Source of the DNA: Bifidobacterium actinocoloniiforme DSM 22766 | Lineage (GTDB): Bacteria; Actinomycetota; Actinomycetes; Actinomycetales; Bifidobacteriaceae | Assembly (NCBI RefSeq): GCF_001263395.1 | Contig: NZ_CP011786.1 | Coordinates: 124,001 to 188,000, forward strand | Reading direction: 5' to 3' | Length of the DNA stretch: 64,000 bases | In this document: in pieces, positions 10,259 to 55,448 of the stretch | How the letters are laid out: every line of letters begins with the position of its first letter | Position numbering within the stretch: the first letter of the stretch is position 1 | The notes under the pieces: model-generated | Database searches by the model: none | What the model saw: only the letters and a program-made list of their open reading frames with translations | What the model was told of the DNA's origin: nothing | Program-made: the position numbers and the translations under genes

Positions 10259-11613
10259 GCGCTAAGACCCGCGGATCCTCACCCTACCTGACCCTTTTCC
10301 GCTTGCCTGGAGCCAAGGGGTTCTGCACGGCGGCCGCCCTGGCCCGCATGCCCATATCGATGATGGGCCTAGGCATTGTGCTGGCCCTGAACCACATTTA
10401 TAACAACTGGACCTCGGCCGGGCTTATGAGCGCGGTCTTCACGCTCTCCGCCGCCCTGGTCACCCCCTTCTACGCCCGCCTGTTCGACCGCTTCGGCCAG
10501 CGGCGGGTGGGCCTGGTCGTACTGAGCGTGCAGATCGTGGCCATGCTGGCCTTCGCCCTGGGCGCACTCAACCGCATAGCGCTGGGGGCCCTGTTCGTCA
10601 TGGCCATAGTGATGGGTCTGACCCAGTTCTCCTTCGGCGCCTTGGTCCGCACCCGCTGGGCTTGGGCCCTGGGGCCGCAGGGGGAGCGGGGCGAGGAACT
10701 GCTCAACACCGCCTACGCCCTGGAGTCCGGCGTGGACGAGTGTGTGTTCATCCTGGGGCCGATCCTGGCGGCCTGGCTGGCCACCTCCGTCAATCCGGTG
10801 GCCCAGCTGTTCGTGCCGATCGCCGCCCTGCTGGTGGGTGGCCTCATCTTCTTCTCCCTGCGTTCCACCGAACCGCCGGCGGTCACGCGCGTCCCGCAGT
10901 CCCAGTTGATCGGGGCCGGGGGCCAGGGCGCCGTCGCTTCCCCAGTGGACGCTGGCGGCGTGGTCAAGCCTGGCGCTCACCAAGGCCGGTACAAGCCCCG
11001 CAGCGCCATGTCCCATCCTGTGGTCCTGCTCCTGTTCGTCATCTTCGTGGTCTTCAATATGTCGTTCTCGGCGGTTGACGTGACCGTGACCGCGCTGACC
11101 AAGCAGATGGGCAGGGAGTCGATCGTGGGCCTGCAACTGTCGCTGATCGCGGCCGGATCCTTGTGCGGGGCGCTGATTTTCGGCTCGGTCAAGCTCAGAG
11201 GCTCGCGCTGGCGCTATCTGACCCTGTACTTAACGCTGTTGACCATTGGCTTCATCGGCTTCCGGCTGACCATGGGCAACCTGCTCGTCCTGGGCGCTGT
11301 CGAGCTGGTGACCGGCCTGTGCGTCTCGCCTATTTACGCTATCGGCAATCTGATCGTGCGCGGCACCGTCGACTCCTCCGCCCTGACAGAAGGCCTGTCC
11401 TGGTTGTCGACCGGTTCCTCGATCGGCAGTTCGCTGGGCTCCACACTGGCGGGCATGGTCTTGGACACGGCCGGACCGGCCGGTGGCATGATGATCCCCT
11501 GGATCGTGACCGCCTGCGCGGTACCCCTGGCCCTGGTGGGTTGGGCTTTCAATCGCCACCCGGAGCGCGCTGGCGCAGGCTCGACGAACCCAAGCGTCCC
11601 GGCGCAGCGATAA
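10255..11613 (+). CDS. Major facilitator superfamily permease
   Basis: About 452 aa, with roughly twelve hydrophobic segments in two halves separated by a charged loop (SQLIGAGGQGAVASP region, about 215-255). The N-terminal half has the MFS motif A-like YARLFDRFGQRRVG between helices 2 and 3. The substrate is unknown; general appearance is of a drug or small-molecule exporter of the MFS_1 type. The ATG at 10255 overlaps the acetyltransferase stop. An in-frame TTG at 10219 lies inside the upstream gene and lacks support. Confidence 0.8.
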   Translation: MSAKTRGSSPYLTLFRLPGAKGFCTAAALARMPISMMGLGIVLALNHIYNNWTSAGLMSAVFTLSAALVTPFYARLFDRFGQRRVGLVVLSVQIVAMLAFALGALNRIALGALFVMAIVMGLTQFSFGALVRTRWAWALGPQGERGEELLNTAYALESGVDECVFILGPILAAWLATSVNPVAQLFVPIAALLVGGLIFFSLRSTEPPAVTRVPQSQLIGAGGQGAVASPVDAGGVVKPGAHQGRYKPRSAMSHPVVLLLFVIFVVFNMSFSAVDVTVTALTKQMGRESIVGLQLSLIAAGSLCGALIFGSVKLRGSRWRYLTLYLTLLTIGFIGFRLTMGNLLVLGAVELVTGLCVSPIYAIGNLIVRGTVDSSALTEGLSWLSTGSSIGSSLGSTLAGMVLDTAGPAGGMMIPWIVTACAVPLALVGWAFNRHPERAGAGSTNPSVPAQR

Positions 11614-11821
11614 CCTGAGAATAGTGAGATGCGTCGCCGTCCGCCGGACCTGCCGAGCAGGAACCCCAGTCGGCGCGCCTAAGGTTTGAGCAACGCTGTG
11701 CCTGGCGCACGCGACCCTGGGTCCTGTGAGGGGCTCTGGCGCGGCTGGCGGAACGCCGTGGAGCCCTAGGGCAGCATGAACCGTCGCTCCCGCACAGGTG
11801 GGGGCACTAATAGGAATCTAA

Positions 11822-34052: not shown

Positions 34053-35045
34053 ATGGCTGACATCCATAATCCCATCGTCCTGCAAAGGGCTGACCCGTAT
34101 GTCATAAGGTTTGATGGCATCTACTATTTCACTGGTTCCTACCCGAGCTTCGACAGGATCGCCCTGCGGAAGGCGGATCGGCTGGACGACTTACAAACGG
34201 CAGAGGAGACCGTGATCTGGCGCAAGCATGAGACCGGTCCCATGAGCCACTTAATCTGGGCGCCCGAACTGCACCGGATTGACGACAAGTGGTACATCTA
34301 CTTCGGCGCCGCCCCCAACGACGGCCAATCCGACGACACCTTCAACCACCGCATCTTCTGCCTGGAGAACGAGGCTGAGGACCCCACCACTGGCAACTGG
34401 ATCGAGCGCGGCAAGGTCGATACCGGCATGGACACTTTCAGTCTGGATGCCACCAGCTTCGAGTTCGACGGCAGCCAGTATCTGGTCTGGGGCCAGCAGG
34501 ACCTTCGAATCGATGGGCATTCCAACCTCTATATAGCCCGCATGGCCAACCCCTGGACCCTGGCCACCGAGCCGGTCATGCTCGCCAAGCCGGAATTCGA
34601 TTGGGAGTGCATACGCTTCAAGGTCTGCGAGGGACCTGCGGTCATCATGCACGCAGGTCGTATTTACATCACCTACTCGGCATCCGGCACTGGTCCTGAG
34701 TACGCGATGGGGATGCTGACCGCCAGCCTGGACTCCAATCTGCTGGATGCCTCTTCCTGGAGCAAGTCGCCTCAGCCTGTGTTCACGACAAACGCAGAGG
34801 CGCACATGTACGGCCCTGGTCATAACTCCTTCACTAAGGCGGAGGACGGAGTGGCCGATGTGATGGTCTACCACGTGCGCAATTACACCAAGATCGAGGG
34901 CGATCCCTTGAATGAGCCCAACCGCCACGCCTGTGCCAAGACCATCTCCTGGAGCGAGTCTGGCCCGGTTTTCGGCAAGCCTGAGGCCATGACCCGTTGG
35001 GTGCCGACCGGTCGGGATGTGCTGCCTCCCGACGGCTCCCACTGA
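34053..35045 (+). CDS. Glycoside hydrolase family 43 enzyme, probable intracellular alpha-L-arabinofuranosidase
   Basis: 330 aa, five-bladed beta-propeller family. The three GH43 carboxylates are visible: base Asp14 in RADPYV, pKa-modulating Asp132 in SLDATSFEF, and acid Glu193 in CEGPAVI. MSHLIWAPELHRIDDKWYIYFGA and the overall sequence look like the subfamily releasing arabinose from arabinan or arabino-oligosaccharides (GH43_26-like); subfamily is inferred. No signal peptide, so it acts on imported sugars. The ATG at 34053 has AAAGGAG; an open frame back to 33897 is not conserved. Forms a module with the following symporter and LacI gene. Confidence 0.85.
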   Translation: MADIHNPIVLQRADPYVIRFDGIYYFTGSYPSFDRIALRKADRLDDLQTAEETVIWRKHETGPMSHLIWAPELHRIDDKWYIYFGAAPNDGQSDDTFNHRIFCLENEAEDPTTGNWIERGKVDTGMDTFSLDATSFEFDGSQYLVWGQQDLRIDGHSNLYIARMANPWTLATEPVMLAKPEFDWECIRFKVCEGPAVIMHAGRIYITYSASGTGPEYAMGMLTASLDSNLLDASSWSKSPQPVFTTNAEAHMYGPGHNSFTKAEDGVADVMVYHVRNYTKIEGDPLNEPNRHACAKTISWSESGPVFGKPEAMTRWVPTGRDVLPPDGSH

Positions 35046-35136
35046 GAGCGGCACTGACGGCATCGTAAGGCCGCGACTTGCGGCGAGCTGGCGGCGGCCA
35101 GTCAAATACCAACGACGGAAGGCGACACACACCATC

Positions 35137-36420
35137 ATGAAATCCTTACGCAAACCAATCTTCTGGAACTTCGGGCTCCTTTATTTCTTCTACTTCGCCA
35201 CCTGGCAGCTTTCAGCCACGTTCCTGCCCATGTGGTTGCAGGACACAGCCGGCATGAACGCCACCCACATCGGCATGCTCAACACAATCGCCGCAGTGGG
35301 CGCACTGATCCTGCAGCCCATCTTCGGCCCCTTGCAGGATAAGCTGGCCCTGCGCAAGAACCTCTTCTACTTCGTGGTCATATGCATCCTCTTCCTGGGC
35401 CCTCTGTTCAACTGGGTCTTCCTGCCGCTGATTCATACCAACGAAATCGTCGGCGCGGTCGCGGCCGGAGCCTATCTGAGCCTGTGCCTGAACGGCGGCG
35501 TGGGTATTATCGAAGCCTACAATGAACGCTCCTCGCGAGCCTATGGCTTCGAGTACGGCCACGCCCGCCTCTTCGGCTCCCTGGCCGGCGCCTGCGCCTC
35601 CTTCGTAGGGGGTTACATGTACTCAGCCAATCCCTCCTCGATTTTCTGGGGCATGACCTTCTGCGGCGCTGTGCTGATTGTGCTGATCAGCCTGGTGCGC
35701 GTGCCCAAGGATGCTATGGAGCGCGCTGAGGGCGTGGACGCTGAGGGCGGCGAGGAGGACCTGGCGATCAGCAAGGACGACTTCGCCCGGAACACGTGGG
35801 CTAACCGCAGCTTCTGGGGCCTGGTCCTGCTGATCATCGGTTCGGCCACCATGTATGACGTCTTCGATCAGCAGTTCGCCAACTACTTCTCCAAGATGTT
35901 CGTGGAGTCCAACATGGGAACTCTGGCCCAGGGCGAGGCTTTGTTCGCCAAGGTCGTCTCTGTGCAGATCCTGCTTGAGGCCTTCTTCATGCTCTTCATG
36001 CCGGCCTTGATTAACAAGATCGGCGCCAAGACCGGTCTGATCATCTACGGCACGATCCTGTTCGTGCGCGTGTTGGGTTGCGCCTTCATCCCGAACGTGC
36101 CGATGCTGATCTTCTGGCGTCTGCTGGCCTCGTTGGAGATGCCCTTCATGCTGGTTTCGGTCATGAAGTACATCACGCGCGTCTTCGATAAGAAGATGTC
36201 CGCCACGGTATACATGTACGGTTTCGGCACCGCCAAGCAAATCGGCGTCTCCATCTTCTCAATCGCCATGGGAGCCATGATCACCGGCATGGGATTCAAG
36301 CACGCTTACCTGGCGCTGGCCATAGTGATCGCGGTCTTGATTATCCTGGGCTCCTCGCTGATGCGTTCGGACAGCAAGGTCATTCGTTCCACCGCCGCCA
36401 AGGGGTCGGTCGCCGACTGA
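35137..36420 (+). CDS. LacY-type oligosaccharide:H+ symporter (MFS)
   Basis: 427 aa, 12 membrane helices. It aligns by eye with E. coli LacY: helix 1 FWNFGLLYFFYF, the loop QPIFGPLQDKLALRKNL, and helix 4-5 NGGVGIIEAYNERSSR...FEYGHARLFG, which keeps the Glu and Arg corresponding to LacY Glu126 and Arg144 in sugar binding. It probably imports an arabinose-containing di- or oligosaccharide for the GH43 enzyme upstream (91-nt gap, same operon). ATG at 35137; GGAAGG lies about 13 bases upstream, a weak ribosome-binding site. Confidence 0.85.
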   Translation: MKSLRKPIFWNFGLLYFFYFATWQLSATFLPMWLQDTAGMNATHIGMLNTIAAVGALILQPIFGPLQDKLALRKNLFYFVVICILFLGPLFNWVFLPLIHTNEIVGAVAAGAYLSLCLNGGVGIIEAYNERSSRAYGFEYGHARLFGSLAGACASFVGGYMYSANPSSIFWGMTFCGAVLIVLISLVRVPKDAMERAEGVDAEGGEEDLAISKDDFARNTWANRSFWGLVLLIIGSATMYDVFDQQFANYFSKMFVESNMGTLAQGEALFAKVVSVQILLEAFFMLFMPALINKIGAKTGLIIYGTILFVRVLGCAFIPNVPMLIFWRLLASLEMPFMLVSVMKYITRVFDKKMSATVYMYGFGTAKQIGVSIFSIAMGAMITGMGFKHAYLALAIVIAVLIILGSSLMRSDSKVIRSTAAKGSVAD

Positions 36421-36443
36421 CCGTAAGCCGGTTGTACTATGGG

Positions 36444-36483
36444 GAAGGTCCTACGCTTCGCTCTGGCGCGGCGTGGGACCTTC
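36444..36483 (+). terminator. Hairpin after the symporter gene
   Basis: GAAGGTCCTACGC and GCGTGGGACCTTC pair with one mismatch around a 14-nt loop, 24 nt past the stop. It separates the symporter from the LacI gene. Confidence 0.7.
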
Positions 36484-36538
36484 GTCCGTTGTCAGGCGCC
36501 AGGCCTGGCCTGAAAGAGTTTAGTCGGAGGGGCAGGCC

Positions 36539-37552
36539 TTGAGCGGCAAGAAGATGACCATCAGGGACATAGCGCAGGAGGCTGGCGTCTCCCGGGCTAC
36601 GGTCTCGCGCTACCTGAATGGCGGACACTGGGTTAGCGAGCAGGCAGCCGCGAAGGTGCAGGCCGTCATCGACCGCACGGATTACGTAGCGAATGAGCGA
36701 GCGCGGTCCCTGGCCACGGGCCGTTCCAACTCGGTGGCGTTCCTACTGGGTGAACCTCAGGAGCTGCTGTTCGCAGACCCGAACTTCTCCACCCTTCTGC
36801 GGGCCATCGCCGATGAACTGGGGCGCAAAGGCATGTCCTTGATTATGATGACTACCGATAACCAGGAGGAGAACAAGCGCAACCTGAAGTTCCTGCGAGG
36901 GGGTCATGTGGACGGCGTGCTCTTAGTGGCCTGGCACTATGGGGTGCGCAAGGGGCTGATTCATTCCCTGCACGCGATGGATATGCCGTTTGTAGTCGCT
37001 GAGTGCCCGGAGGTGGACAGCGATTCGACCAGCTATGTGCATGTGGATGACTACCATGGGGCGGCCCGGGCCACGCACTATCTACTGGAGCGTGGCGCCA
37101 AGTCCGTAGCCATGATCGCCGGACCGGAGGGGCCTACCGGCGCCCTGGAGCGTGTGCGGGGCTTCGAGGACGCCATGCGCTCCCGGGGTCAGAACCCCGA
37201 GTGGATCGAGCGGGGCGATTATTCCAAAGCCAGTGGTTACGATGCTGCGCTCAGACTCCTGAAGCGGGCCCCTCAGGTCGATGGTCTCTTCGTCGCTTCC
37301 GATTTGATGGCGATTGGTGCCATGCAAGCCTTGCGTTCCCAAGGCCGCGACGTGCCAGCGAACGTGCAGGTGATCGGCTTCGATGACCAGCAGCTGGCGC
37401 AAATCTCCGAGCCTCCACTGACCACCCTGCGCCAGCCTTTCGGCGAGATCGGTCGTAAGATGGTTGACCAACTGATTGACCTGATTCATGGAGGCTCCCC
37501 AGTAGGCACCATCCTCCCGCTGGAGCTGGTGGTCCGCCAAACCACCCGTTGA
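36539..37552 (+). CDS. LacI-family transcriptional repressor
   Basis: 337 aa. Helix-turn-helix TIRDIAQEAGVSRATVSRYLNGGHWVSEQAAAKV with the hinge helix ANERARSLATGRSNSVAFLL, then a sugar-binding periplasmic-type domain (GHVDGVLLVAWHYG, FVASDLMAIGAMQALRSQGRDVP, IGFDDQQLAQISEPPLTTLRQP). TTG at 36539 follows GGAGG by eight bases; ATG at 36554 is the alternative. It likely represses the GH43-symporter operon in response to its sugar. Confidence 0.88.
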   Translation: MSGKKMTIRDIAQEAGVSRATVSRYLNGGHWVSEQAAAKVQAVIDRTDYVANERARSLATGRSNSVAFLLGEPQELLFADPNFSTLLRAIADELGRKGMSLIMMTTDNQEENKRNLKFLRGGHVDGVLLVAWHYGVRKGLIHSLHAMDMPFVVAECPEVDSDSTSYVHVDDYHGAARATHYLLERGAKSVAMIAGPEGPTGALERVRGFEDAMRSRGQNPEWIERGDYSKASGYDAALRLLKRAPQVDGLFVASDLMAIGAMQALRSQGRDVPANVQVIGFDDQQLAQISEPPLTTLRQPFGEIGRKMVDQLIDLIHGGSPVGTILPLELVVRQTTR

Positions 37553-39612: not shown

Positions 39613-40010
39613 TCTAATGCCAAAGCTAATCAGGCATTACAAAAGAGAAGTGGAAAAGTGGAAGCGGAATAAAGATGAATTCAATCCGAACATATGGAGC
39701 AGCAATGATGCTGCTTACGCGTAGTTGTTGAAAATTTGCAAATAATATCGCCTTTTTGCTTTAAAAAGGATGCGCGCTTCCCATGTGTTTATAGTGCAGG
39801 TATCGATAGTCTTGCTCGTCAGCCGACGCATGGAAAAGTCGGAGAACAGGATTACCGCTGTGTCATGGTCTGCGACGAGGCAGTCCGCGTGACCATGTCG
39901 AGTGACGGAATTGACGCCTCTGCATCGGTATTCGTATTCGCAAGACGGGTTTGCGGATTAACCGAGGAGGCCAGACGAGGTCAAAAGAGAAAGATAAAGG
40001 TGTAGAGCGC

Positions 40011-43000
40011 ATGAACGTATTCCGCAAGACGCTTGCAGGATTGGTGGCCGGTGTCGTTCTCCTGGCAGTTGTACCGTCGGCGATGCCTGCGTTTGCGTCT
40101 GAATCCAGACAAACGGTTAACGTGACTCCCAATCCTTGGTATGCTAGTGGCCCTTTCCAAGGGTGGGGAACATCACTTGCCTGGTTCGCCAATGCGACAG
40201 GCAACTATGGAGAGCCTGGTTCAATCAGCCAATCCAGCGGCAATCCTCAATCCGACAGCAAAGCGCTAGAGTATGGACGGCAGCTTCGTGAGGATTTTTA
40301 TACGAGCATTTTCGGTCGGCAAGGTCTCGGCCTCAATAAGGCGCGATACAACATAGGCGGGGGCAACGCCTCCGATGTGGCTTATGGCTACCCATTTATG
40401 AGGCAGGGGGCCGCAATGCCCGGTTACTGGGTCCAAGATCCTAATGGATCCTTGGGGCTTTACGGCGGGGTGAGTACTACGATGCGGAATAAGAACGCCA
40501 TTGATGGTGCGTTTGATCCGGAAAAGGACGACTCCTATGTATGGGGTCCTGCATCCAGGAACTCCTCGGAGGCTTACGCTACCAAAGCTCAGGAATGGTG
40601 GCTGAAGCGAGGCGCGGAGCACAAGGATATCAACCAGGTCGAAGCGGCGGCCAATGCGGCTCCGTGGTTCATGACTGGAAATGGGTATGTCAGCGGGGGG
40701 ACGAGTGGAAATGCCAACAACCTGGTCGATGCTGACAAATATGCCCAATACTTGGCTGCGGTTACTCGGCACCTTTCCCAGCTCAAAGCAGCGAACGGGA
40801 ACCAGGTCTCGATTAATACGGTAGAACCGCTTAACGAGTCGGAGACGGGATATTGGAGTTCGCCTCAAGGGAGAGCTTCAGATACTTGGCCATCACAAGA
40901 CACCGCTTTAATCGACCGGTATTGGAACCGTTACTACCAAGACAAGGACAAGAGCAAAACCCCTTATACAAGTGAGGTGAAAAAGCCCCAAGAAGGGATG
41001 CACGTGGATGTCGAGACCGCGGGCAGGACTATTCGGTCCCTCAGGTCGGCCCTTGACGCCCAGGGCCTGCGGCAAACGCAAGTCTCCGCAACTGATGCGA
41101 CGGATTCAGGGCAGTTTGTCGATTCTTACCGTCACTATCCCCAAGAGGTCAGAAATGCTATAGGCCAGTATAACACCCATGCCTATGGCACGAACCATCA
41201 GCGGGTAGCCCGTGATATAGCTCAGGGCGACGGCAAGGCTCTTTCGATGAGTGAGGTGGATGGGTCCTGGCAATCCGGAGGCTTCAACCCGTACGGTTTC
41301 GATAATGCCCTGGGAATGGCCGGCAAGATAAATAGCGATGTCTATGCCCTGCAATCAAGGGACTACACTTTCTGGCAAATCGGCGAGGATCTCTACAACG
41401 TTGCCACCGGTGATAAGGACATGAATGGGAATACGGCCAATCCCAAGGGCGAGGACACCAATTGGGGTAGCGTTTTTCTTGATTACGATTGCTCCGTGGC
41501 TGGAACGGACGGCAAGCTCTACTCCCGCAGAGAGGTGGACAATAATGGGGGCAGCACCGCAGGAATCCATCCCTGTCGTATAGTGGTCAACGCGAAGTAC
41601 AATGCAGTGCGGGCTTACACCCAATTCATCCATCAAGGCGATGCCATCACTGCCAACAATGCCACCAAGGACAATATGACAGCCAGCTCAGCCGATGGCA
41701 AGGTTCAGACCGTAATTCACCGCAATGGTGGTGATCAGCCCCAGACTCTGGTCATCGACCTATCCAATTACGACCGAATCGACTCGAAAGCGGCGGGAAG
41801 GCTTTTCCTCACCACGACTCCGGACCATCAGCAGGATATATATACAGCCAACATGGACTATATGAACCGCTACTCCAATAAGGAGCAACCGCATGCAGTC
41901 AGTATAAATACGACGACCAAGACGGCTACGGTGAATCTGCCTGCCCGATCCATCGCTTCCATACAGTTGACAGGTTTATCCGGGGTCTCCCCCCAGGCTC
42001 AGGTGATGGATGGCAGCACTATCCAACTTCAAGGGCAGCAATCAGGGAAGATGCTCTCTGCGGCGGACGATGGCCAACTCACGCTCGAAGACATGGCCAA
42101 AACCCCCGCACAGGGCCGGGCCCAATCATTCACTGTCTCCAGTGTCGCTTCTCCCATTGGCGCTCCTATGCTGAAGCGATATCTTCTCTCTTCCGCTAAT
42201 GGAAGCCGGTTCCTGGGTGCCGATGGCCGAATGCAAACCGGTACGCGGGAATCGGTAGGCGCCGATGCGAAATACATCTGGATACTCGATACCGAGAACG
42301 GCAAGACGTTCAGTCTGGTTAACCAAGCAGACAAGGTTGCTTTGGATGTGGCCGGTCAGGAGACTGATGCAGGAGCATCAGTCACTGTGGCGGAGTCGAC
42401 CGGGGACTGCAACCAGGCTTGGTACTTCCGGTCCACGATGCCTACTGGGGCGCAGGATACGACTGTCCAGGTACCTCTCGGAGGACCTGTGTCCATGCCG
42501 GGGACGGTGGTTCCCTATTACCCTTGGGGAAAGGGGGAACCCGTCTCTGTGGTATGGCGGACCTCTACAGTGAACGTCAACAAGGAAGGAACCTACCGGG
42601 TCCAAGGGGTCGCAACTGATTTCTTCGGTAATACTTTTCCTTGCAATGCATCAGTGTTCGTTGGTGCGCTGACAGTGACCGATCCTGCTTCGGCGACCGT
42701 GCTCTTCGGCTCAGACGCGAGTGCCGTCCGCAAAGTGATGGAAACCACTGCTGTATATGGTCATGTCAAAGCTTCGCCGGCCATAAAGGTCGATCCTCAA
42801 GCGGTGACTTGGGATTATACGGATCTCCAGGGGAAACTGGACCGGGCCAAAGAGGGGTCGGCAGTGGGCATTCATGGTGCTCTCGCAATAGGACAAGGCC
42901 GTTCCCTGCCTCTGTCTTTCGCCCTATATCTGGAAGCAGCTATACCTCAAAACGTCGCTGATGTCAGTTGCAATCTGACCGTCACGGACCAGGATGTCGA

Positions 43001-44567
43001 GTACGGGAAAGAAGACCAGTGGAGGAAGCTCACAGATGGCAATACGAAGGAAGAGGCATGGGCTACTTGGAATTCGGCTGGTAACTACCGTCACAGTCCT
43101 ACCGCCAACCTGGACTTCGGGCAGGTCCGCCAATTGGACCGGGTGACGATCACTTACAAGGACCACCCGCCCGTGTCGGCCAAAGCCGAGTACACGGATA
43201 ACGGCATCACGTGGAAACCCCTTGGGCAAATTGCTCTCAATCCCCAGCCAGGACAAACCCTGACCTTCCAAGCGAACAGTATGGTGGGGGCAAGCAAGGT
43301 CCGCATCGTTAATACCGTTGACAATGCTTGGATGGATGCTACGGAAATAGAGGCCCGGGCCCGGCCATGGGTCGGCCCAATCAGGAATTTGGCCTGGGGC
43401 GCAGGTACTCATTTCACTGTCAACGCCGACGAGGGCGACACGGCCGGTAAAGCCATTGATGGCCATGTCGGCAAGGGCTGGTCCACCCGGTCGGCACCTG
43501 CGAACATTGACCCGACGGCCACCTTCACCTTTGGCCGTGTTCGCACCATCACTCACATCACTACGACTTTCTATCGTGATGGGCGCGCATCGTGGCCCAA
43601 GGCTCAGACATTGGAGTATAAGGATAAATCTGGCGCGTGGCACAGTGTAGGAACCAGGTCGGGGTGGTATCTTCCGCAACCCGGTAGTGGCGATTCCTCG
43701 ACTGACGCTGATACTCCTACGGCGGATTTTGTCTTGATGACTCCCGTTGAGGCCAAAGCGGTGCGTTTGGTTAATGTTCTCCAGGACAACCGGACCTACA
43801 TTAATGTGGCGGAAATGGAGGTGTACGGCACTGAGAGCGTCTCGACCTTCGAACCTGAACCCGGGAACGACAGCGACCTAGCCGATCTGCGTCTGGATGG
43901 ACAGACGATCAAAGGTTTCTCGCCTCGCCAAAGTGATTATGTGGTTGATTTACCGGTTGGTGCGCAACGCAACCCTGTGCTGCAGGCTTTCAGCCGAGAC
44001 AACGCCGCTAATGTGGTTCTACAATCTGATGCTCAGTCACAGGTAGGTGGCAGGACCCTGATCACAGTTGCGCCCGCCGATGGATCCCAAGCTAGAACCT
44101 ATTCCGTGCTATTCCGGTCTTTCGACTTGCGTGAATTGAAGATTACTCCGCCAATGAAAACGGACTACGGCATAGGCGAGCCATTCGATTCGCGTGGATT
44201 GGAAGTTGGCGCCGTCTATGTTGCGCATGATACAGGGGACAAGCAGGTCAAGCCCCTTGTCCTGAGCGATCCCGATTTGTCCATAAGGGGGTTCGACTCG
44301 TCAGTTCCTGGAAGGAAGACTGTCACGGTGGCTTACCGGGGAGTGAACGCCAGTTTCGGGGTCTCTGTAAGAAGAACTGGGGAGATCTCTTCCGGTGAAG
44401 GCAGCTATGGCGTGAACGGACAGCAATCGCAGTCGGACGGACGCCTTCATCCTGCTTTGGCGAATTCAGGGACCGCAGTGGTGCCGATATTGCTGCTTGC
44501 CACGTTATTGACGTTTGCCGCGCTGGCCGCTTATATAGGGAGGCGATACTGGTCGGGTAAGAGGTAA
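40011..44567 (+). CDS. Cell-surface multidomain GH30 glycosidase, probable endo-beta-1,6-galactanase
   Basis: 1518 aa. Signal peptide MNVFRKTLAGLVAGVVLLAVVPSAMPAFA. The GH30-like catalytic domain (about 30-560) starts FQGWGTSLAWFANATG; acid/base Glu276 is in EPLNESETGYW and nucleophile Glu415 in SMSEVDGSW. The organisation matches bifidobacterial GH30_5 endo-beta-1,6-galactanases acting on type II arabinogalactan; substrate is inferred. Then a ricin-like/CBM13-type region (about 670-810), an Ig-like domain (about 820-885), two F5/8C (CBM32)-like discoidin domains (about 985-1110 and 1125-1280), a cadherin-like domain, a Big_3-like Ig domain, and a C-terminal membrane helix AVVPILLLATLLTFAALAAYIG with a basic tail that anchors it. 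ATG with AAAGGTG at eight bases. Noticeably less GC-rich than the backbone. First gene of the galactan module. Confidence 0.85.
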   Translation: MNVFRKTLAGLVAGVVLLAVVPSAMPAFASESRQTVNVTPNPWYASGPFQGWGTSLAWFANATGNYGEPGSISQSSGNPQSDSKALEYGRQLREDFYTSIFGRQGLGLNKARYNIGGGNASDVAYGYPFMRQGAAMPGYWVQDPNGSLGLYGGVSTTMRNKNAIDGAFDPEKDDSYVWGPASRNSSEAYATKAQEWWLKRGAEHKDINQVEAAANAAPWFMTGNGYVSGGTSGNANNLVDADKYAQYLAAVTRHLSQLKAANGNQVSINTVEPLNESETGYWSSPQGRASDTWPSQDTALIDRYWNRYYQDKDKSKTPYTSEVKKPQEGMHVDVETAGRTIRSLRSALDAQGLRQTQVSATDATDSGQFVDSYRHYPQEVRNAIGQYNTHAYGTNHQRVARDIAQGDGKALSMSEVDGSWQSGGFNPYGFDNALGMAGKINSDVYALQSRDYTFWQIGEDLYNVATGDKDMNGNTANPKGEDTNWGSVFLDYDCSVAGTDGKLYSRREVDNNGGSTAGIHPCRIVVNAKYNAVRAYTQFIHQGDAITANNATKDNMTASSADGKVQTVIHRNGGDQPQTLVIDLSNYDRIDSKAAGRLFLTTTPDHQQDIYTANMDYMNRYSNKEQPHAVSINTTTKTATVNLPARSIASIQLTGLSGVSPQAQVMDGSTIQLQGQQSGKMLSAADDGQLTLEDMAKTPAQGRAQSFTVSSVASPIGAPMLKRYLLSSANGSRFLGADGRMQTGTRESVGADAKYIWILDTENGKTFSLVNQADKVALDVAGQETDAGASVTVAESTGDCNQAWYFRSTMPTGAQDTTVQVPLGGPVSMPGTVVPYYPWGKGEPVSVVWRTSTVNVNKEGTYRVQGVATDFFGNTFPCNASVFVGALTVTDPASATVLFGSDASAVRKVMETTAVYGHVKASPAIKVDPQAVTWDYTDLQGKLDRAKEGSAVGIHGALAIGQGRSLPLSFALYLEAAIPQNVADVSCNLTVTDQDVEYGKEDQWRKLTDGNTKEEAWATWNSAGNYRHSPTANLDFGQVRQLDRVTITYKDHPPVSAKAEYTDNGITWKPLGQIALNPQPGQTLTFQANSMVGASKVRIVNTVDNAWMDATEIEARARPWVGPIRNLAWGAGTHFTVNADEGDTAGKAIDGHVGKGWSTRSAPANIDPTATFTFGRVRTITHITTTFYRDGRASWPKAQTLEYKDKSGAWHSVGTRSGWYLPQPGSGDSSTDADTPTADFVLMTPVEAKAVRLVNVLQDNRTYINVAEMEVYGTESVSTFEPEPGNDSDLADLRLDGQTIKGFSPRQSDYVVDLPVGAQRNPVLQAFSRDNAANVVLQSDAQSQVGGRTLITVAPADGSQARTYSVLFRSFDLRELKITPPMKTDYGIGEPFDSRGLEVGAVYVAHDTGDKQVKPLVLSDPDLSIRGFDSSVPGRKTVTVAYRGVNASFGVSVRRTGEISSGEGSYGVNGQQSQSDGRLHPALANSGTAVVPILLLATLLTFAALAAYIGRRYWSGKR

Positions 44568-45126: not shown

Positions 45127-48100
45127 ATGAAGCCGGTGTCCGCCACCAATGTTCAGCTCACCATACCGACCTATGAGGTAGGTAAGCCGGATTCTAACCC
45201 GCAATTTATAGAAGGTCGCGTATACCAGGGTTCGACGGGTAAGGTCTACCCCTACCCGGTGATTGAATCCATCACTGACGATAAAAAAGACAAAGTCTAC
45301 AATGCCGTTAATCTGGAAAACGAATTTCTCAAAGTCACCGTACTGCCTGAATTGGGCGGACGCATCCAGTATGCCACTGATAAGACCAATAACTACGATT
45401 TCGTTTACCGAAATGACGTGGTCAAGCCTGCCTTGGTCGGTCTTTTGGGCCCATGGATTTCAGGCGGCATTGAATTCAACTGGCCTCAGCACCATCGACC
45501 AACGACATTCATGCCGGTCGATTACCGGCTGGTAGAGCTGGATCATGATGGCAGGGGGGTGCAATGCCATGACGTGGACAGAATTCATGGCACAGAAGTA
45601 GTCACCACTATTGCCTTGTATCCGGGGAAATCCTACATTGAGATATCCGCTGACCTCTATAATGGCACACCCCTGCCCCAGAGCTTCTTGTGGTGGGCGA
45701 ACCCTGCCGTGCCAGTGAATGAGCACACCAAGACCGTAATGCCGCCTGACGTTGTTGCTGTGATGGATCATGGCAAGCGTGATGTCAGCCGTTATCCTAT
45801 TGCGACGGGGACGTACTATAAGCATGACTACTCCCAGGGTGTGGATATAAGCCGTTACAAGAACATTCCTGTACCTACCAGCTATATGGCGGCACACTCC
45901 GATTTCGATTTTGTCGGCGGTTATGATTTCAAGGAGGAAGCAGGCATCCTTCATGTGGCCGATCACCATATCAGCCCCGGTAAGAAGCAATGGACTTGGG
46001 GCTCTGGCGATTTCGGTCATGCGTGGGACAGGAACCTTACTGACGCCAACGGCCCGTATGTGGAGCTTATGACCGGCGTGTTCACTGATAATCAACCTGA
46101 CTTCACTTGGCTTAAGCCGTATGAGACCAAGCATTTCACCCAGTATTTCATGCCTTATCGGTCCCTGGGTCTGGTCAAGAACGCAACCCTCGATGCGGCA
46201 GTGAATTTGGAATTTGGCCCTGCCGATCCGATTGAGGCTGAGCGGGAATCAGAAGGGGTCGATGGCGCCGGCCTCCAGGATGGGCAAGGACGCTTTAAGG
46301 TTTCAGCTACGTCAAGACATGCAGAAGTCATCGTCAAGGTGGTTGGAGACGACAATCAAGTGCTCGCGGAAACAAGAGCAGAAATTGGACCTGACCATAC
46401 ATGCGAAGGCTTGTTCAATACTCAAGGCAAAAAGCCCTGGGAGATCTCAATCAGCGTCACGGACGAGCAAGGGAGAAGCCTAGTCGCTTACCGACCGCTT
46501 CGACCGAAGATACCAACAATCCCCTCACCGGCAAAAGCGCCGAGTGAGCCTTCCGCTATGGCCACCAACGAGGAACTTTTGCTCACGGGTCAGCATTTGG
46601 AGCAATATCGGCATGCCACTAGCCGACCGGATCCGTATTACCTTGAAGGCCTTAAACGCGATCCCAACGATACCAGAATCAATGTGGCCTATGGGGAACT
46701 GCTGCTAAGGCGGGGGGCATTTGAAGAAGCCAGACAGCATTTCAAGACGTCAATCAAGCGACTTACTGAGCATAATCCCAACCCTTATGACGGCCGGGCT
46801 TTCACGGATTTGGGCCTTGCCGAGTTCTTCCTGGGCAATGATCAGGAAGCTTACGATGCCTGGTACAAGGCAACCTGGGATGAGACCCAGGCCAGCCAGG
46901 GTTATTATTACCTGGCCATGATGTGCGCAAGGACAGCTGAGTGGGCGCAGGGTTTGGCATTCGTCAATCGTAGTCTGGAATATAATGCCCTCAGTTCCAA
47001 GGCCCTGGCATTGAAATCCTTCCTCCTGCGTCGTCAAGGGAGGGAACAGGATGCGTTAGAAAGTCTCGACGAGAATCTGAAGCACAACGCTTTTGACTTC
47101 GTGTCAGGTTTCGAACGGCATTTGCTGGGAGATAGCGATGAGGTGTTTTCCTTGATGGGGAATCGGACCTATAACTATTTGAATCTGGCTCGCACCTATA
47201 TGTCATTCGGCGCCTACGAGGAGGCTTGCGCGGCGTTGCTGCGGTCGGATGAACAAGATGCCTTGGTGAATTACTATCTGGCCTACTGTGAGCATCGTTT
47301 GGGTAGACTTGAGCAGTCTGCGCGGCATATTCAAACAGCCGAAAAGTTGCGGGGGCTATATTGTTTCCCCAATGCGCTTGAAGACATCTTCGTCTTGAGG
47401 GACGCCATTGGTATGGGAGCCAACCCCAGGGCCGCTTATTATCTCGGCTGCCTGTACTATGACAAATTGCAGACCAGTCGGGCGGTCTCCATGTGGGAAC
47501 GGTCCTGTGCTGCTGATCCGTCTTTCCCCACGGTCCACAGGAATCTGGCTCTCGCCTATTATAACAAGCTTGGCCGGAAGCATGATGCCCTTGAACAGAT
47601 GGAAGAGGCCTTCCGCCTTGACGAGTCGGACGCGCGAGTTTTTTTGGAGTTGGATCAACTGCATCAGGCAATGGGCTGGACCTATCTGCAGCGTCGTGAG
47701 CTCTTCGAAAATCATATGACCTTGGTTGAATCCCGTGATGACTTATACGTCGAGTATATGGAGATTCTCAATCTGACCGGTTCTTATGAACAAGCCTTCA
47801 AGCTTATGTCAAAGCGGCATTTCCATCCCTGGGAAGGCGGCGAAGGAAAGGTGACCGCCCAGTATCGTCTTTCGCTGATCCTCATAGCCCTGCAAGCTAT
47901 GAAGGCGAAAGATTGGCAATTGGCGCAAGAAAAACTCATAATGGCACAGCGTTACCCTGAAAATTTAGGGGAAGGAAAGCTGGAAGGGCAGAAGGACAAC
48001 GATATCCATTACTTCCTGGGCCTGGTTAATCAGCAACTGAATAAGGACGAAGAGGCGACTGCCGAATTCAGAAAGGCTTCCACAGGTCCGAATGAGGTCA

Positions 48101-48498
48101 AGGGAGCTCTGTACTACAATGATCAGCCGTCTGAAATGATCCTGTTCCAAGGACTTGCCCACCTGGCTTTGGGTGAGGCTGGCCAGGCGAATGCGCGTTT
48201 CTATCGGCTGTTGGATTATGGTGAACAGCACCTGAACGAAAGTGACCATGTTGATTTCTTTGCCGTTTCCCTCCCTGATTTCCGGGTGTTCGAAAGGGAC
48301 TATGGCCTTATGAACCACGTGCATTGCCAGTACCTTATTGCTCTGGCGAACCTAGGCATGGGCAACGAGAAAGAGTCAGTTTACTGGTTTGGACGGGTTC
48401 TCGCTGATGACCCCACTCATATGCAGGCCACGGCATTCATGAAAGCCATAACGGTGGACCGGTTGGCCGCACAGTTTAGGAGCAAGGAAGCGAAGTAA
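45127..48498 (+). CDS. DUF5107-domain protein with long tetratricopeptide-repeat region, intracellular
   Basis: 1123 aa, no signal peptide. Residues 1 to about 370 form an all-beta domain with FLKVTVLPELGGRIQ (about 66-81), GPWISGGIEFNWPQHH (about 108-122) and LWWANPAVPVNEHT (about 188-201), features of the DUF5107 family, whose fold resembles galactose-mutarotase-type supersandwiches used by several glycosidases and lyases. A second beta domain (about 380-470) is followed by TPR-like helical pairs from about 500 to the end (for example INVAYGELLLRRGAFEEARQHF, YLNLARTYMSFGAYEEACAAL, HRNLALAYYNKLGRKHDALEQM). Its place between a surface GH30 and an ABC importer-GH42 unit suggests a sugar-processing role, but no activity can be assigned from sequence. 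ATG with AAGGAGAG. Confidence 0.82.
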   Translation: MKPVSATNVQLTIPTYEVGKPDSNPQFIEGRVYQGSTGKVYPYPVIESITDDKKDKVYNAVNLENEFLKVTVLPELGGRIQYATDKTNNYDFVYRNDVVKPALVGLLGPWISGGIEFNWPQHHRPTTFMPVDYRLVELDHDGRGVQCHDVDRIHGTEVVTTIALYPGKSYIEISADLYNGTPLPQSFLWWANPAVPVNEHTKTVMPPDVVAVMDHGKRDVSRYPIATGTYYKHDYSQGVDISRYKNIPVPTSYMAAHSDFDFVGGYDFKEEAGILHVADHHISPGKKQWTWGSGDFGHAWDRNLTDANGPYVELMTGVFTDNQPDFTWLKPYETKHFTQYFMPYRSLGLVKNATLDAAVNLEFGPADPIEAERESEGVDGAGLQDGQGRFKVSATSRHAEVIVKVVGDDNQVLAETRAEIGPDHTCEGLFNTQGKKPWEISISVTDEQGRSLVAYRPLRPKIPTIPSPAKAPSEPSAMATNEELLLTGQHLEQYRHATSRPDPYYLEGLKRDPNDTRINVAYGELLLRRGAFEEARQHFKTSIKRLTEHNPNPYDGRAFTDLGLAEFFLGNDQEAYDAWYKATWDETQASQGYYYLAMMCARTAEWAQGLAFVNRSLEYNALSSKALALKSFLLRRQGREQDALESLDENLKHNAFDFVSGFERHLLGDSDEVFSLMGNRTYNYLNLARTYMSFGAYEEACAALLRSDEQDALVNYYLAYCEHRLGRLEQSARHIQTAEKLRGLYCFPNALEDIFVLRDAIGMGANPRAAYYLGCLYYDKLQTSRAVSMWERSCAADPSFPTVHRNLALAYYNKLGRKHDALEQMEEAFRLDESDARVFLELDQLHQAMGWTYLQRRELFENHMTLVESRDDLYVEYMEILNLTGSYEQAFKLMSKRHFHPWEGGEGKVTAQYRLSLILIALQAMKAKDWQLAQEKLIMAQRYPENLGEGKLEGQKDNDIHYFLGLVNQQLNKDEEATAEFRKASTGPNEVKGALYYNDQPSEMILFQGLAHLALGEAGQANARFYRLLDYGEQHLNESDHVDFFAVSLPDFRVFERDYGLMNHVHCQYLIALANLGMGNEKESVYWFGRVLADDPTHMQATAFMKAITVDRLAAQFRSKEAK

Positions 48499-48860: not shown

Positions 48861-49799
48861 ATGACACATTCCATTTCTGCGGCGAGTTCTGTGAATTCTC
48901 CGAAAGATCGACAACCCGGCACAAGTAACAGACACCGACGTGATTGGCGCGGATGGAAGTTTATGGGACCTTTCGCGCTGGCTTTCATGCTGGTTTTCGT
49001 CATCCCGATTATCTACGCCATTTATATTTCTTTCTTTGAAAGGCGGATGGTAGGAGGAACCGTTTTCGTTGGGCTAAGCAACTACAAACGGCTCTTCGCG
49101 GATGGTAACTTCTGGAGTTCAGTTGAACGTGTCAGCGCTTTCACGCTGATTCAGGCTCCGCTCTGCCTGTTTTTGGCCGCGCTTCTGGCTTTGGCAATTG
49201 ACTCTATGAGGTTGCACGGCACAAAATTCTTCCGTATATCCACTTTCCTGCCGTATGCGGTTCCGGCTGTGGTGTCCACGCTGATATGGGGTTTCATGTA
49301 CGGAGCGAAATACGGTCTTGTGGGTTCATTCAATGCATGGACCGGCTTACACATGGACTTGTTGGCTCCTAATATTCTGCTTGTCTCGATTGGCAATATC
49401 GTGACTTGGGAATATACGGGCTATAACATGCTGATTTTCTATTCCTCCTTATCCACCGTCCCGCATTCTCTTTACGAGGCCGCAGCAATCGATGGGGCGA
49501 GTGAGTGGCAAATCGTACGCCGGATTAAGATGCCGGAGTTGCGTGGCAGTCTGGCCATTACTGTGATTTTCAGTATTATTGGTTCCTTCCAGCTCTTCAA
49601 TGAACCGTCAATCATGCAGAACATGGTGCCGGGAAATACTATTACCAGCTACTACACACCGAACATGTACGCCTACAGTCTCAGTTTTGCGGGTAACCAG
49701 TCGAATTACGCCGCGGCCTTGGCCATCGTCATGGCGGTCATCACTATGGCGATCGCTTACGTTGTGCAGCTGAACAGTCTGAAGGAGCAAATGAAATGA
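48861..49799 (+). CDS. ABC transporter sugar permease (MalF/UgpA type)
   Basis: 312 aa, six membrane helices. The first helix, after a charged tail, is FALAFMLVFVIPIIYAIYISFF. The EAA loop that contacts the ATPase reads EAAAIDGASEWQIVRRIKMPEL (about 210-231). Pairs with the next permease to form the carbohydrate-uptake CUT1 channel. ATG with AAAGGAG. The next permease overlaps it by 4 nt. Confidence 0.92.
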   Translation: MTHSISAASSVNSPKDRQPGTSNRHRRDWRGWKFMGPFALAFMLVFVIPIIYAIYISFFERRMVGGTVFVGLSNYKRLFADGNFWSSVERVSAFTLIQAPLCLFLAALLALAIDSMRLHGTKFFRISTFLPYAVPAVVSTLIWGFMYGAKYGLVGSFNAWTGLHMDLLAPNILLVSIGNIVTWEYTGYNMLIFYSSLSTVPHSLYEAAAIDGASEWQIVRRIKMPELRGSLAITVIFSIIGSFQLFNEPSIMQNMVPGNTITSYYTPNMYAYSLSFAGNQSNYAAALAIVMAVITMAIAYVVQLNSLKEQMK

Positions 49800-50770
49800 C
49801 CGCTGATATTATGGATGAATCGCCTTCAGCAATTCGAGCTCGAGAGCGGCAGCGGGCGAAACGCATAGCGAGGGATGAACGGGCGGAGCGCAAGCGGGCA
49901 GCGGAAGCTGGATTCTCCAACCCTTCCAACCCCCGTCGTTCCCTGCCGCTGACATTGGCGACAGGTGTCTTCGCCGTCTACTGTCTTTTTCCTTTTGCGT
50001 ATTTGATTATCAACGCCACCAAGACGCAACCGGATTTCACGTCAACCTTCGGGCTTTGGTTTGGTCACACCTTTGCGCTTTGGGACAACGTCGTCACCGT
50101 CTTTACATATGAAGACGGTATTTTCGGACGGTGGCTCCTGAATACCCTTCTCTACGTAGTGGTTGGTGCAGGTGGGGCAACCATCCTGGCCATTATGGGT
50201 GGGTATGCCTTGGCGAAGTTCGTTTTCCCTGGTCGTAAGGCTGTTTTCGCCGTGGTTCTTGGTTCTATCAGTGTTCCCGGTATCGCCTTGGCGGTTCCGC
50301 AGTTCCTCCTGTTCGCAAAGATGGGTTTGACCAATACTCCCTGGGCCATGATCTTGCCTAGCCTCATTAGTCCATTTGGCCTTTACCTTATGTGGATTTT
50401 CTCAGAACAGGCAGTGCCGACGGAGCTCCTGGAATCGGCGAGGGTAGATGGTGCGGGTGAGTTCAGGACCTTCCTGACCATCAGTCTGCCTCTTTTGGCC
50501 CCGGGAATCGTGACCACGGCCTTGTTCGCCATCGTAGCGACCTGGAACAACTATTTTCTGCCATTGATTATGTTGAAGGATTCCGAATGGTATCCCCTGA
50601 CCATTGGACTTAATCAGTGGAAGAATCAGGCCAATACAGCCGGTGGACATGCAATACAGAATCTGGTCATCACAGGGTCTCTGGTTACGGTGATCCCCCT
50701 AATGATCGCTTTCCTGATTCTTCAACGGTACTGGCAATCTGGATTGGCTGCAGGAGCCGTCAAGGAATAG
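49796..50770 (+). CDS. ABC transporter sugar permease (MalG/UgpE type)
   Basis: 324 aa. A highly charged N-terminal tail (RARERQRAKRIARDERAERKRA) precedes helix 1, LATGVFAVYCLFPFAYLIINA. The EAA loop reads ESARVDGAGEFRTFLTISLPLL. ATG overlaps the first permease stop (ATGA), so the pair is translationally coupled. No ATPase gene is present in the cluster; bifidobacterial CUT1 systems commonly use a shared MsiK/MalK-type ATPase encoded elsewhere. Confidence 0.92.
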   Translation: MTADIMDESPSAIRARERQRAKRIARDERAERKRAAEAGFSNPSNPRRSLPLTLATGVFAVYCLFPFAYLIINATKTQPDFTSTFGLWFGHTFALWDNVVTVFTYEDGIFGRWLLNTLLYVVVGAGGATILAIMGGYALAKFVFPGRKAVFAVVLGSISVPGIALAVPQFLLFAKMGLTNTPWAMILPSLISPFGLYLMWIFSEQAVPTELLESARVDGAGEFRTFLTISLPLLAPGIVTTALFAIVATWNNYFLPLIMLKDSEWYPLTIGLNQWKNQANTAGGHAIQNLVITGSLVTVIPLMIAFLILQRYWQSGLAAGAVKE

Positions 50771-50801: not shown

Positions 50802-52931
<2,130 letters not shown>

Positions 52932-53019: not shown

Positions 53020-54354
53020 ATGAAACATGCTAAGGGTCTGAAGCGCTTAGTGGCCTGTGCTGGTGTAGTGGCCATGTTCCTCGGTGCCTCTGCCTGCGGC
53101 GGCAAGCAAAGCGCCACAGACGAGAACGTGGAACTAAATGTTTGGGCATGGGAGCCCACACTAAAGGCGGCGACCAAGGAATTCGAGAAGAAGTACCCGA
53201 ACATCAAGATCAAATTGCAGAATGCCGGGACCGCAAAGGAGCAGTACACGGCGCTCGACAATGCCTTCCAGGCTGGCAAAGGGGCTCCTGACGTGGCGCA
53301 AATCGAACTTTACGCTTTGAGCCAATATGCCATTAATAATCGCCTGACCGATTTGAGTGACCGGACGCAGGGCTATTCCAAGTTCTATAATCCGGGCACT
53401 TGGAATTCGGTCCTGGTCAACAAGAAGCCTTATGGGTTGCCTTTCGGCTCTGGCGCCATGGCTTTCTTCTACAACAAGGACGTATTCGATAAGGCCGGCG
53501 TCGACGCGACTCAGATCAAGACCTGGGACCAGTACTATGAGGCCGCCAAGAAGATTCGTTCGGTCGGTTCATACATTGCCGCCGATTCAGGCGATTCTGG
53601 CTTCTTCGATGCGATGATTTGGCAAGCCAATGGACACCCCTATAAGCTTTCAGCCGATGGAAAGGACCTCTCCATCGATTTGGACAATGATAAGGGCACT
53701 CAGGATTTCATCAAGTGGTGGCAGAAGATGATTGATGAGGACCTGGTCGACACCAAGACTGTCATCTGGACTGAAGATTGGAACAAAAGTCTGAACAACG
53801 GCAAGCTTGCCTCCGCTCTGATAGGGTGCTGGATTCCAACCACCTTGGTTAATGTGGCCCCCGATCAAGCGGGCAAGTGGCGGGTTACCACTATGCCAAC
53901 CCAGGATGGTTCACCGGTCAATTCCAACCATGGTGGCTCGTCCTTGGCTATCATGTCGTCCAGCAAGAAGACCGATGCCGCGTATAAGTACATCGATTTC
54001 ATCTCCCGGAATCAGGCCAGCATCGATGCGCGTGTGGCGGGAGGCTCCTTCCCTGACGATGTGAAAACCACTAAGTCGCAAAAGTTCAAGGACGCAACCA
54101 CGGTCAAGAACGCCAAGGGGGAGGATATCGCGTACTTCGGTGGTCAGAAGTACAATGAGGTTCTGGCGAAGGCCGCTGGTGACGTAATTCCAGGTCACGA
54201 TACACTGCCGTTCGAGGTCTATGCCCGGACCGTTTTTGCCGATGATGTGGGCTCCGCCTACACCGACAAAAAGATCACCTTGAAGCAAGGCGTGTCCGCT
54301 TGGCAGAAGCACCTGAAAGAATATGGAAAGCAGCAAGGCTTCAACGTCAAATAA
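53020..54354 (+). CDS. ABC transporter solute-binding lipoprotein (sugar)
   Basis: 444 aa. Lipoprotein signal KRLVACAGVVAMFLGASAC with acylated Cys26. Family-1 extracellular binding protein features: ELNVWAWEPTLKAATKEFEKKYPNIKIKLQNAG, GAPDVAQIELYALSQYA, YGLPFGSGAMAFFYNKDVFDKAGVD, TWDQYYEAAKKI and late aromatic residues. It captures the oligosaccharide for the two permeases. It lies 88 nt after the GH42 gene, in an unusual order (permeases, GH42, then binding protein), and is followed by a terminator. Confidence 0.93.
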   Translation: MKHAKGLKRLVACAGVVAMFLGASACGGKQSATDENVELNVWAWEPTLKAATKEFEKKYPNIKIKLQNAGTAKEQYTALDNAFQAGKGAPDVAQIELYALSQYAINNRLTDLSDRTQGYSKFYNPGTWNSVLVNKKPYGLPFGSGAMAFFYNKDVFDKAGVDATQIKTWDQYYEAAKKIRSVGSYIAADSGDSGFFDAMIWQANGHPYKLSADGKDLSIDLDNDKGTQDFIKWWQKMIDEDLVDTKTVIWTEDWNKSLNNGKLASALIGCWIPTTLVNVAPDQAGKWRVTTMPTQDGSPVNSNHGGSSLAIMSSSKKTDAAYKYIDFISRNQASIDARVAGGSFPDDVKTTKSQKFKDATTVKNAKGEDIAYFGGQKYNEVLAKAAGDVIPGHDTLPFEVYARTVFADDVGSAYTDKKITLKQGVSAWQKHLKEYGKQQGFNVK

Positions 54355-54412: not shown

Positions 54413-54596
54413 TCTTGATACTGTCTGTGTTGCTCCGTACTGTGCCCATGCCTTCTTGCTTACCGCTTGACTCGCTGCAGAGGCATAGCGTTAAAGGGCG
54501 AGAACAGGTTGCAGCGTGACCGCTGCTTAGACTGTGTATCGGGGCAATGAGGGCAGTGTCAGCGATAAGAACCTTGGCGAAAAGGAAGAGTGCATT

Positions 54597-55448
54597 GTGG
54601 CGAAACCCGCTGAGCATGGTATTGACGCAAGTGCTTCGGATTTTCTGATTCACACCCCGTCGGCCATCGCCCGCGCCACTTTTTTCTACCCCCTACGGAT
54701 GGGCGATTTTTTCTATGAACCTGGCTACAGGTTGGAGCGGAGATCTTTCGACAGCTATTTGATCATTTATGTCGACAGTGGCAGGTTGTTCTTCGACCTA
54801 CCCGAGGGTTCTTTTGTGGCTGAAGAGGATAGCTTTGTACTGATTAACTGCTACGAACGCCATGCCTATAGCACCGATATCAGGACGACGGCACAATGGC
54901 TTCACTTTGATGGTGTCATGGCCCAGCCCTACTACGAATACATCGTCAGAAAGTTGGGTAACGTTTTTATGCTTTCCTCCGAGACGTACGCTCTGGAACG
55001 GATGAGAACCATCAACACCCTGTTGACCGCCGAAAATGGATATTCCGAAGCCAGAATGTCCAAATGCATCACCGACCTCCTTACCGAGTTCGCGGATGAA
55101 CAGCCTCGTTCATTTAAGCGCAAGCAAACGGAGGTGGTGGAAGACACGATTGCATACGTATCCACTCATCTGTATGAGCCGCTTACCATTTCCGAGTTGG
55201 CCGAGCGTGTCTTCCTCAGTGAGTATCACTTCATCCGACTCTTCAAGCAGGAAACCGGTATCACGCCCCATGCCTACCTGGTGGATGCCAGGATTCATGC
55301 GGTGCAATACCTGCTGGTCAACAGTCTGATGTCCATTCGTCAAATCTGCCAGCAGTGTGGGTTCACTTCCGAATCATCGCTGTGTGCTGCATTCAAGAAG
55401 AGCGCAGGTATGACTCCGATGGAATATCGCAGACTGAAACAAGGGTGA
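54597..55448 (+). CDS. AraC-family transcriptional regulator
   Basis: 283 aa from GTG at 54597, which has AAGGAAGAG about nine bases upstream; an earlier GTG at 54534 would add 21 residues with no clear site. N-terminal cupin-like sensor (RSFDSYLIIYVDSGRLFFDLPEG...DSFVLINCYERHAYST). C-terminal double helix-turn-helix: EPLTISELAERVFLSEYHFIRLFKQETGITPHAYLVDARI and MSIRQICQQCGFTSESSLCAAFKKSAGMTPMEYRR. Lies at the end of the galactan module and probably activates it. Confidence 0.9.
   Translation: MAKPAEHGIDASASDFLIHTPSAIARATFFYPLRMGDFFYEPGYRLERRSFDSYLIIYVDSGRLFFDLPEGSFVAEEDSFVLINCYERHAYSTDIRTTAQWLHFDGVMAQPYYEYIVRKLGNVFMLSSETYALERMRTINTLLTAENGYSEARMSKCITDLLTEFADEQPRSFKRKQTEVVEDTIAYVSTHLYEPLTISELAERVFLSEYHFIRLFKQETGITPHAYLVDARIHAVQYLLVNSLMSIRQICQQCGFTSESSLCAAFKKSAGMTPMEYRRLKQG

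Follow-up and report, generated by a model that had tools for sequence, protein, structure and literature searches.

Closest described systems

Escherichia coli YphG (b2549) has the same full-length architecture as the protein studied here, a DUF5107-TPR protein encoded in Bifidobacterium actinocoloniiforme DSM 22766. The two proteins share 39% identity across 99% of the length and are collinear, each with a beta domain and a long TPR arm. In the yph operon, YphG is encoded beside the sugar ABC importer YphDEF, the mutarotase-like protein YphB, and the Zn-dehydrogenase YphC. The chromosomal region of E. coli at NC_000913.3 2673816-2684056, with yphBCDEFG and the divergent yphH, resembles a complete orphan sugar-glycoside utilisation system. 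A short form of the beta domain is present in the solved structure 5cd6 (BDI_1685 of Parabacteroides distasonis), a protein of about 580 aa. In this protein the GGIE, H, N, and E residues are kept and the long TPR arm is for the most part missing; no published function was found for it. The family is already catalogued, as PF17128, as E. coli YphG, and by the structure 5cd6, which the earlier note on this DNA had missed.

No function of the DUF5107/YphG family was found in the openly searchable literature, with subscription papers and CAZy outside the search. In one paper (PMC8163842), DUF5107 is mentioned as an unknown marker for MAST protists. By their titles and abstracts, the literature matches to YphG seem to concern diagnostic markers, omics or unrelated subjects, and yphF figures only among genes induced by levoglucosan or in mutants of UPEC (PMC8753852, PMC11032443).

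For the locus as a whole, the described counterpart is the beta-1,6-galactoside locus of B. animalis subsp. lactis Bl-04 (Bal6GBP, BlGH42A), reported as an importer and a GH42 only (PMC8106489). Bal6GBP is the beta-1,6-galactobiose binder of B. lactis, with published affinity data (PMC8106489).

Galactan locus of B. actinocoloniiforme

The window, i.e. the whole stretch of 64,000 nucleotides that was analysed, possesses a binding protein, ABC permeases, and a GH42 as in strain Bl-04, and further contains genes for a surface GH30_5-like galactanase and for the DUF5107-TPR protein; its features given here between 39951 and 55448 lie on the forward strand. The DUF5107-TPR gene (45127..48498) is placed between the surface galactanase and the ABC importer with GH42, as the earlier note had described. 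The upstream gene (39951..44567) encodes a GH30_5-like endo-beta-1,6-galactanase with galactose-binding, ricin-type, and Big domains detected with Pfam, and a C-terminal membrane anchor. Its catalytic part matches 24td (E 2.8e-9), the endo-beta-1,6-galactanase that Streptomyces avermitilis secretes, which belongs to GH30 subfamily 5 (PMC13431644).

Downstream are two ABC sugar permeases (48861..49799 and 49796..50770), both clustering with BPD_transp_1 proteins, followed by a GH42 beta-galactosidase (50811..52931; Pfam E 7e-149; matches to 8ibr, 4ucf, and 4uni) whose nearest relatives are the bifidobacterial Bga42 enzymes. The next gene encodes a Bal6GBP-like ABC solute-binding protein, of the beta-1,6-galactobiose type (53020..54354; 6q5g/6h0h, E 1e-148), and is followed by an AraC-family regulator (54534..55448). 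Since a GH30_5-like galactanase, a Bal6GBP-like importer, and a GH42 are all present, the locus probably cuts beta-1,6-galactan (side chains of arabinogalactan) outside the cell and imports beta-1,6-galactosides. A galactokinase, one aldose epimerase, and an arabinose isomerase are encoded elsewhere in the genome. A LacY-type oligosaccharide symporter and a LacI regulator were also found just 5' of the galactan genes (35017-37552).

A gap of 559 bp separates the DUF5107-TPR gene from its upstream neighbour, and one of 362 bp from its downstream neighbour. Because of these gaps the gene need not share the transcript of its neighbours, and it may be transcribed alone. The search for operators common to the intergenic regions of the window revealed none, yielding only one weak palindrome and a few weak pairs of 16-mers that differ at two positions, and the promoter and terminator scans gave nothing above shuffled sequences. 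The yph operon differs from the window in its ROK regulator and RbsABC-type importer, in place of an AraC regulator and a CUT1-type importer. Moreover, no GH adjoins yphG, unlike in the window locus.

Protein architecture and distribution of the family

The reading frame of the DUF5107-TPR gene is intact and encodes 1123 aa. It starts with AAGGAGAGAGCAATG, and a ribosome-binding site is present immediately 5' of the ATG. No signal peptide was apparent at the N-terminus on inspection by eye, and the protein is taken as intracellular. DUF5107 (PF17128) covers residues 39-343 (45241..46155) with E 5.4e-52 and 177 bits, against a cut-off of 24.4, and several TPR families matched between residues 482 and 1108; Pfam did not detect a known GH domain. 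The AlphaFold2 model, built on an alignment of 63 sequences (mean pLDDT 86, pTM 0.86), contains a single beta-sandwich domain and about 35 helices over residues 481-1122, so that the TPR array joined to a beta domain, as the earlier note had proposed, is found both in the profiles and in the model. The TPR solenoid spans residues ~482-1120 (46570..48486). The model confidence is lowest at three invariant loops, at residues 105-122, 320-322, and 1047-1050.

The gene is single-copy in the 1.83-Mb Bifidobacterium genome. A scan of 84,980 species genomes yielded at least 588 confirmed relatives. The eighty that were retained come from Bifidobacterium, Lachnospiraceae and other Clostridia, Paenibacillus and other Bacilli, Spirochaetales, a Chloroflexi-type genome, and Maribacter. 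Full-length relatives are also present in Bacteroidota, Fusobacteriota, and enterobacteria, on chromosomes or plasmids. Identity to homologues of other phyla is 61-65% in the N-domain, whereas in the TPR arm it is 31-40%. Judged by its sequence, the window gene represents, in Bifidobacterium, the widespread family to which E. coli YphG belongs.

Co-occurrence with other genes was compared in 99 relatives. For GH53 it was not significant (4/24 versus 6/75, p 0.25), and for araA (22/24 versus 39/75, p 0.0005) it is confounded by phylogeny. Paenibacillus phytorum harbours two DUF5107-TPR genes within 13 kb (L121:531-3869 and 9932-13294), each followed by a DUF4432/epimerase-like gene. A Parabacteroides plasmid record contains a short DUF5107 protein of the 5cd6 type (L143:5839-7641), in a SusCD locus that also encodes a DUF4091 protein; activity on carbohydrates is possible for the short form as well.

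Mutarotase fold and altered site residues

The beta domain has the fold of the mutarotases, as the earlier note had suggested. With VIA-align it matches B. subtilis GalM 3mwx with Z 22.0 (3.1 A across 257 residues), E. coli YphB 3nre with Z 19.4, and 5cd6 with Z 29.9. In hhalign, DUF5107 aligns to the neighbouring genes of the DUF4432/YphB type with a probability of 94% (E 1.4e-7). Only this family aligned; no match was obtained when the beta domain was compared by hhalign directly with the GalM-type Aldose_epim neighbours. The Aldose_epim profile likewise did not match the window protein at E 0.001 in Pfam.

Both motifs that the earlier note had regarded as conserved are invariant across 63 homologues from several phyla. 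The first, GGIEFNWPQHH (residues 113-123, 45463..45495), contains the family-wide invariant E116 and H123. The second, WWANP (residues 189-193, 45691..45705), places N192 where the mutarotases of the YphB/DUF4432 type have their catalytic His-Pro. The catalytic acid histidine of mutarotases is H170 in L. lactis GalM. Since hhalign sets the DUF5107 segment FLWWANP against flWaaHP in the mutarotases, this histidine corresponds to Asn192, and Asn192 is present in every DUF5107 aligned. E313 in YVELMTGVFTDNQPD (46063..46065) is the probable counterpart of the mutarotase base glutamate (GalM E304) by motif order and fold, the profile alignment having ended before it.

Throughout the DUF5107 proteins aligned, whose identities fall to 21% and among which is the short form of the 5cd6 type, the invariant polar residues are N65, E116, H123, N179, N192, K287, W300, and E313. 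Across the beta domain, 57 positions are conserved in at least 95% of the sequences, with many polar residues invariant. The earlier note had proposed searching the beta domain for a pocket lined by carboxylates or histidines, and the invariant Glu, His, Asn, and Lys residues E116, H123, N192, K287, and E313 do look, by their conservation, like an altered active site. The window protein differs further from GalM in the additional glutamate of GGIE and in the C-terminal TPR arm.

A mutarotase or anomerase for oligosaccharides, bringing imported sugars to the right anomer, would agree with the fold, the probable base glutamate, and the aldose metabolism genes nearby. Such a role is nonetheless improbable: the acid histidine is replaced by Asn192 throughout, Aldose_epim is not detected by Pfam, and genuine mutarotase-like genes accompany it in 25 of the 95 surveyed loci, in some cases as the next gene downstream. 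Because the acid histidine is lost and true mutarotases are co-encoded, the window protein is probably not a mutarotase.

TPR arm

The TPR arm harbours 50 polar or tryptophan positions conserved in at least 95% of the sequences, including W902, E903, E906, K908, E949, N958, D999, and Q1000. These are not ordinary TPR framework positions. The motif FHPWEGGEGK (residues 899-908, 47821..47850) is nearly invariant. Modelled alone, the arm has its best structural matches in TPR-type helical repeats, including Rap, PilF, and LGN. No catalytic (alpha/alpha) barrel was among the matches listed for the lone arm, and these barely covered the residues past ~312 of the lone-arm model.

TPR arms usually bind proteins, and these matches would suit a non-catalytic sugar sensor or scaffold, with a sugar bound by the mutarotase domain and with the arm as the docking site for enzymes or for the AraC regulator. 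The missing acid histidine could likewise mark a dead enzyme kept for binding, and AraC is the commonest neighbour of the gene. We consider this role rather unlikely. No neighbouring gene was constant across the surveyed loci, and the enzymes and regulators vary, the regulator beside the gene being AraC, LacI in Spirochaetales, or ROK in enterobacteria, a poor fit to a fixed docking partner. The 57 conserved positions of the beta domain are also more than ligand sensing usually needs, and loci without a recognised GH offer nothing evident to scaffold. The proposal of the earlier note that the arm organises partner enzymes is weak, because the neighbours change by locus while the architecture stays constant, and the arm possesses invariant polar motifs of its own.

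Gene neighbourhoods across loci

The survey comprised 106 sequences (the window and 105 loci), in which genes were called and clustered and the recurrent clusters annotated; functions were counted with tblastn probes over 95 non-redundant loci. The commonest neighbour was an AraC regulator, present in 56 loci, usually divergent, and of the same cluster as the AraC gene of the window. A GH of family GH35, GH2, GH36, GH53 or a cellulase-like family was present in 46 of the 95 loci (GH35 in 21, GH2 in up to 28, GH36 in 8, and GH53 in 6), and a sugar importer in 41. At least one among GH, importer, and mutarotase-like gene was found in 75 of the 95. The DUF5107-TPR gene is thus tied to glycan loci in many phyla, as the earlier note had expected, and its linkage to galactoside loci extends beyond the window.

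The share of genes with a sugar function fell from 29% within 2.5 kb through 14% at 2.5-7.5 kb to 4% at 7.5-10 kb; this decay, internal to the loci, served as the only control of the enrichment. It could be argued that the linkage merely reflects gene transfer or a general tendency of sugar genes to cluster, with the protein in a housekeeping role apart from the locus, as 20 of the 95 loci contain none of the probed sugar functions. However, the steep drop with distance and the presence of the same neighbours in distant taxa make this very improbable.

Twenty-nine loci possess an importer and/or a mutarotase without a GH of the probed families. In these loci the most evident candidate for a catabolic enzyme is the DUF5107-TPR protein, with GHs of unprobed families possible; one locus (L126) carries GH97 and GH31 genes, which are outside the probe set.

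The downstream pathways differ between loci. Two loci of Spirochaetales (L099 and L112) contain a galactonate dehydratase, an importer, and an epimerase-like gene, to which L099 adds a confirmed sugar-dehydrogenase-like SDR and SMP-30 lactonase. A locus of Lachnospiraceae (L063) contains dgoD, GH35, and a dgoA-like gene. The galactonate-pathway genes of these three loci point to D-galactose. In three further loci (L067, L131, and L122) genes for L-rhamnose catabolism and GH2 or GH35 are near the DUF5107-TPR gene, which suggests substrates of the rhamnogalacturonan type. The Cetobacterium locus encodes a solute-binding protein resembling the arabinose-binding protein; together with the L-rhamnose genes, it cautions that L-arabinose is another possible product or that the substrates are not uniform. 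In Klebsiella, a sugar-porter MFS protein and an aldose 1-epimerase come after the DUF5107-TPR gene. In bee-gut genomes similar to B. asteroides, an 892-aa GH2-type protein is encoded after the DUF5107-TPR gene (L036:4479-7154); it barely matches Pfam GH2, yet it matches PDB 8u01 with E 4e-114.

These differences between rhamnose and galactonate loci would agree with another sugar-processing enzyme, such as a lyase, an isomerase, a C-epimerase or a transglycosylase, or an enzyme hydrolysing a non-glycosidic bond, with an imported galacto-, arabino- or rhamno-type sugar as its substrate in the mutarotase-like pocket. The evidence from loci and conservation is the same for such an enzyme as for a glycosidase, and the Glu/His acid-base chemistry of the mutarotase fold could be adapted to other reactions. 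Nonetheless, loci without a recognised GH would then have no enzyme releasing monosaccharides, unless the monosaccharide itself is imported, and no partner from a set pathway is found throughout the loci. An enzyme of this kind is conceivable but unlikely.

Predicted function

We tentatively predict that the DUF5107-TPR protein is an intracellular carbohydrate-active enzyme, and that it could well be an exo-acting glycoside hydrolase freeing D-galactose from imported small glycosides, as the likeliest activity. L-arabinopyranose is an alternative product because its configuration is similar to that of D-galactose. The importer next to the window gene would supply the small glycosides, and the substrate in the window locus may be a fragment of AG-II side chains left by GH42. 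The sugar would be bound in the mutarotase sugar site, with E313 and E116 as a carboxylate pair and H123, N192, and K287 positioning the substrate. Instead of recruiting partners, the TPR arm would close over the pocket through the invariant WEGGEG, EGKL-GQ-DN, and YYNDQ loops and shape the aglycone side. The loops at 105-122, 320-322, and 1047-1050 may meet at one site.

Some observations count against this prediction. Many loci already possess a galactosidase, and an extra step is not obvious in them. Large gaps lie between the window gene and its neighbours, and the model confidence is lowest at the very loops that may meet at the site. The L-rhamnose genes and the araA co-occurrence count against galactose, and the sugar may be another one.

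Possible, although doubtful, is the wider proposal that DUF5107-TPR proteins are a new GH family, with a site inside a mutarotase fold that lacks the acid histidine, the glutamate pair E116/E313, and a TPR superhelix closing the site, and that the yph operon is a utilisation system for galactosides (or L-arabinopyranosides). The family is large, with its relatives including an orphan gene of E. coli K-12. If the proposal is true, it would provide a function for the yph operon and add a catalytic use to the mutarotase fold. It would also provide a missing intracellular step in the use of arabinogalactan and plant galactosides by bifidobacteria, Lachnospiraceae, and Paenibacillus.
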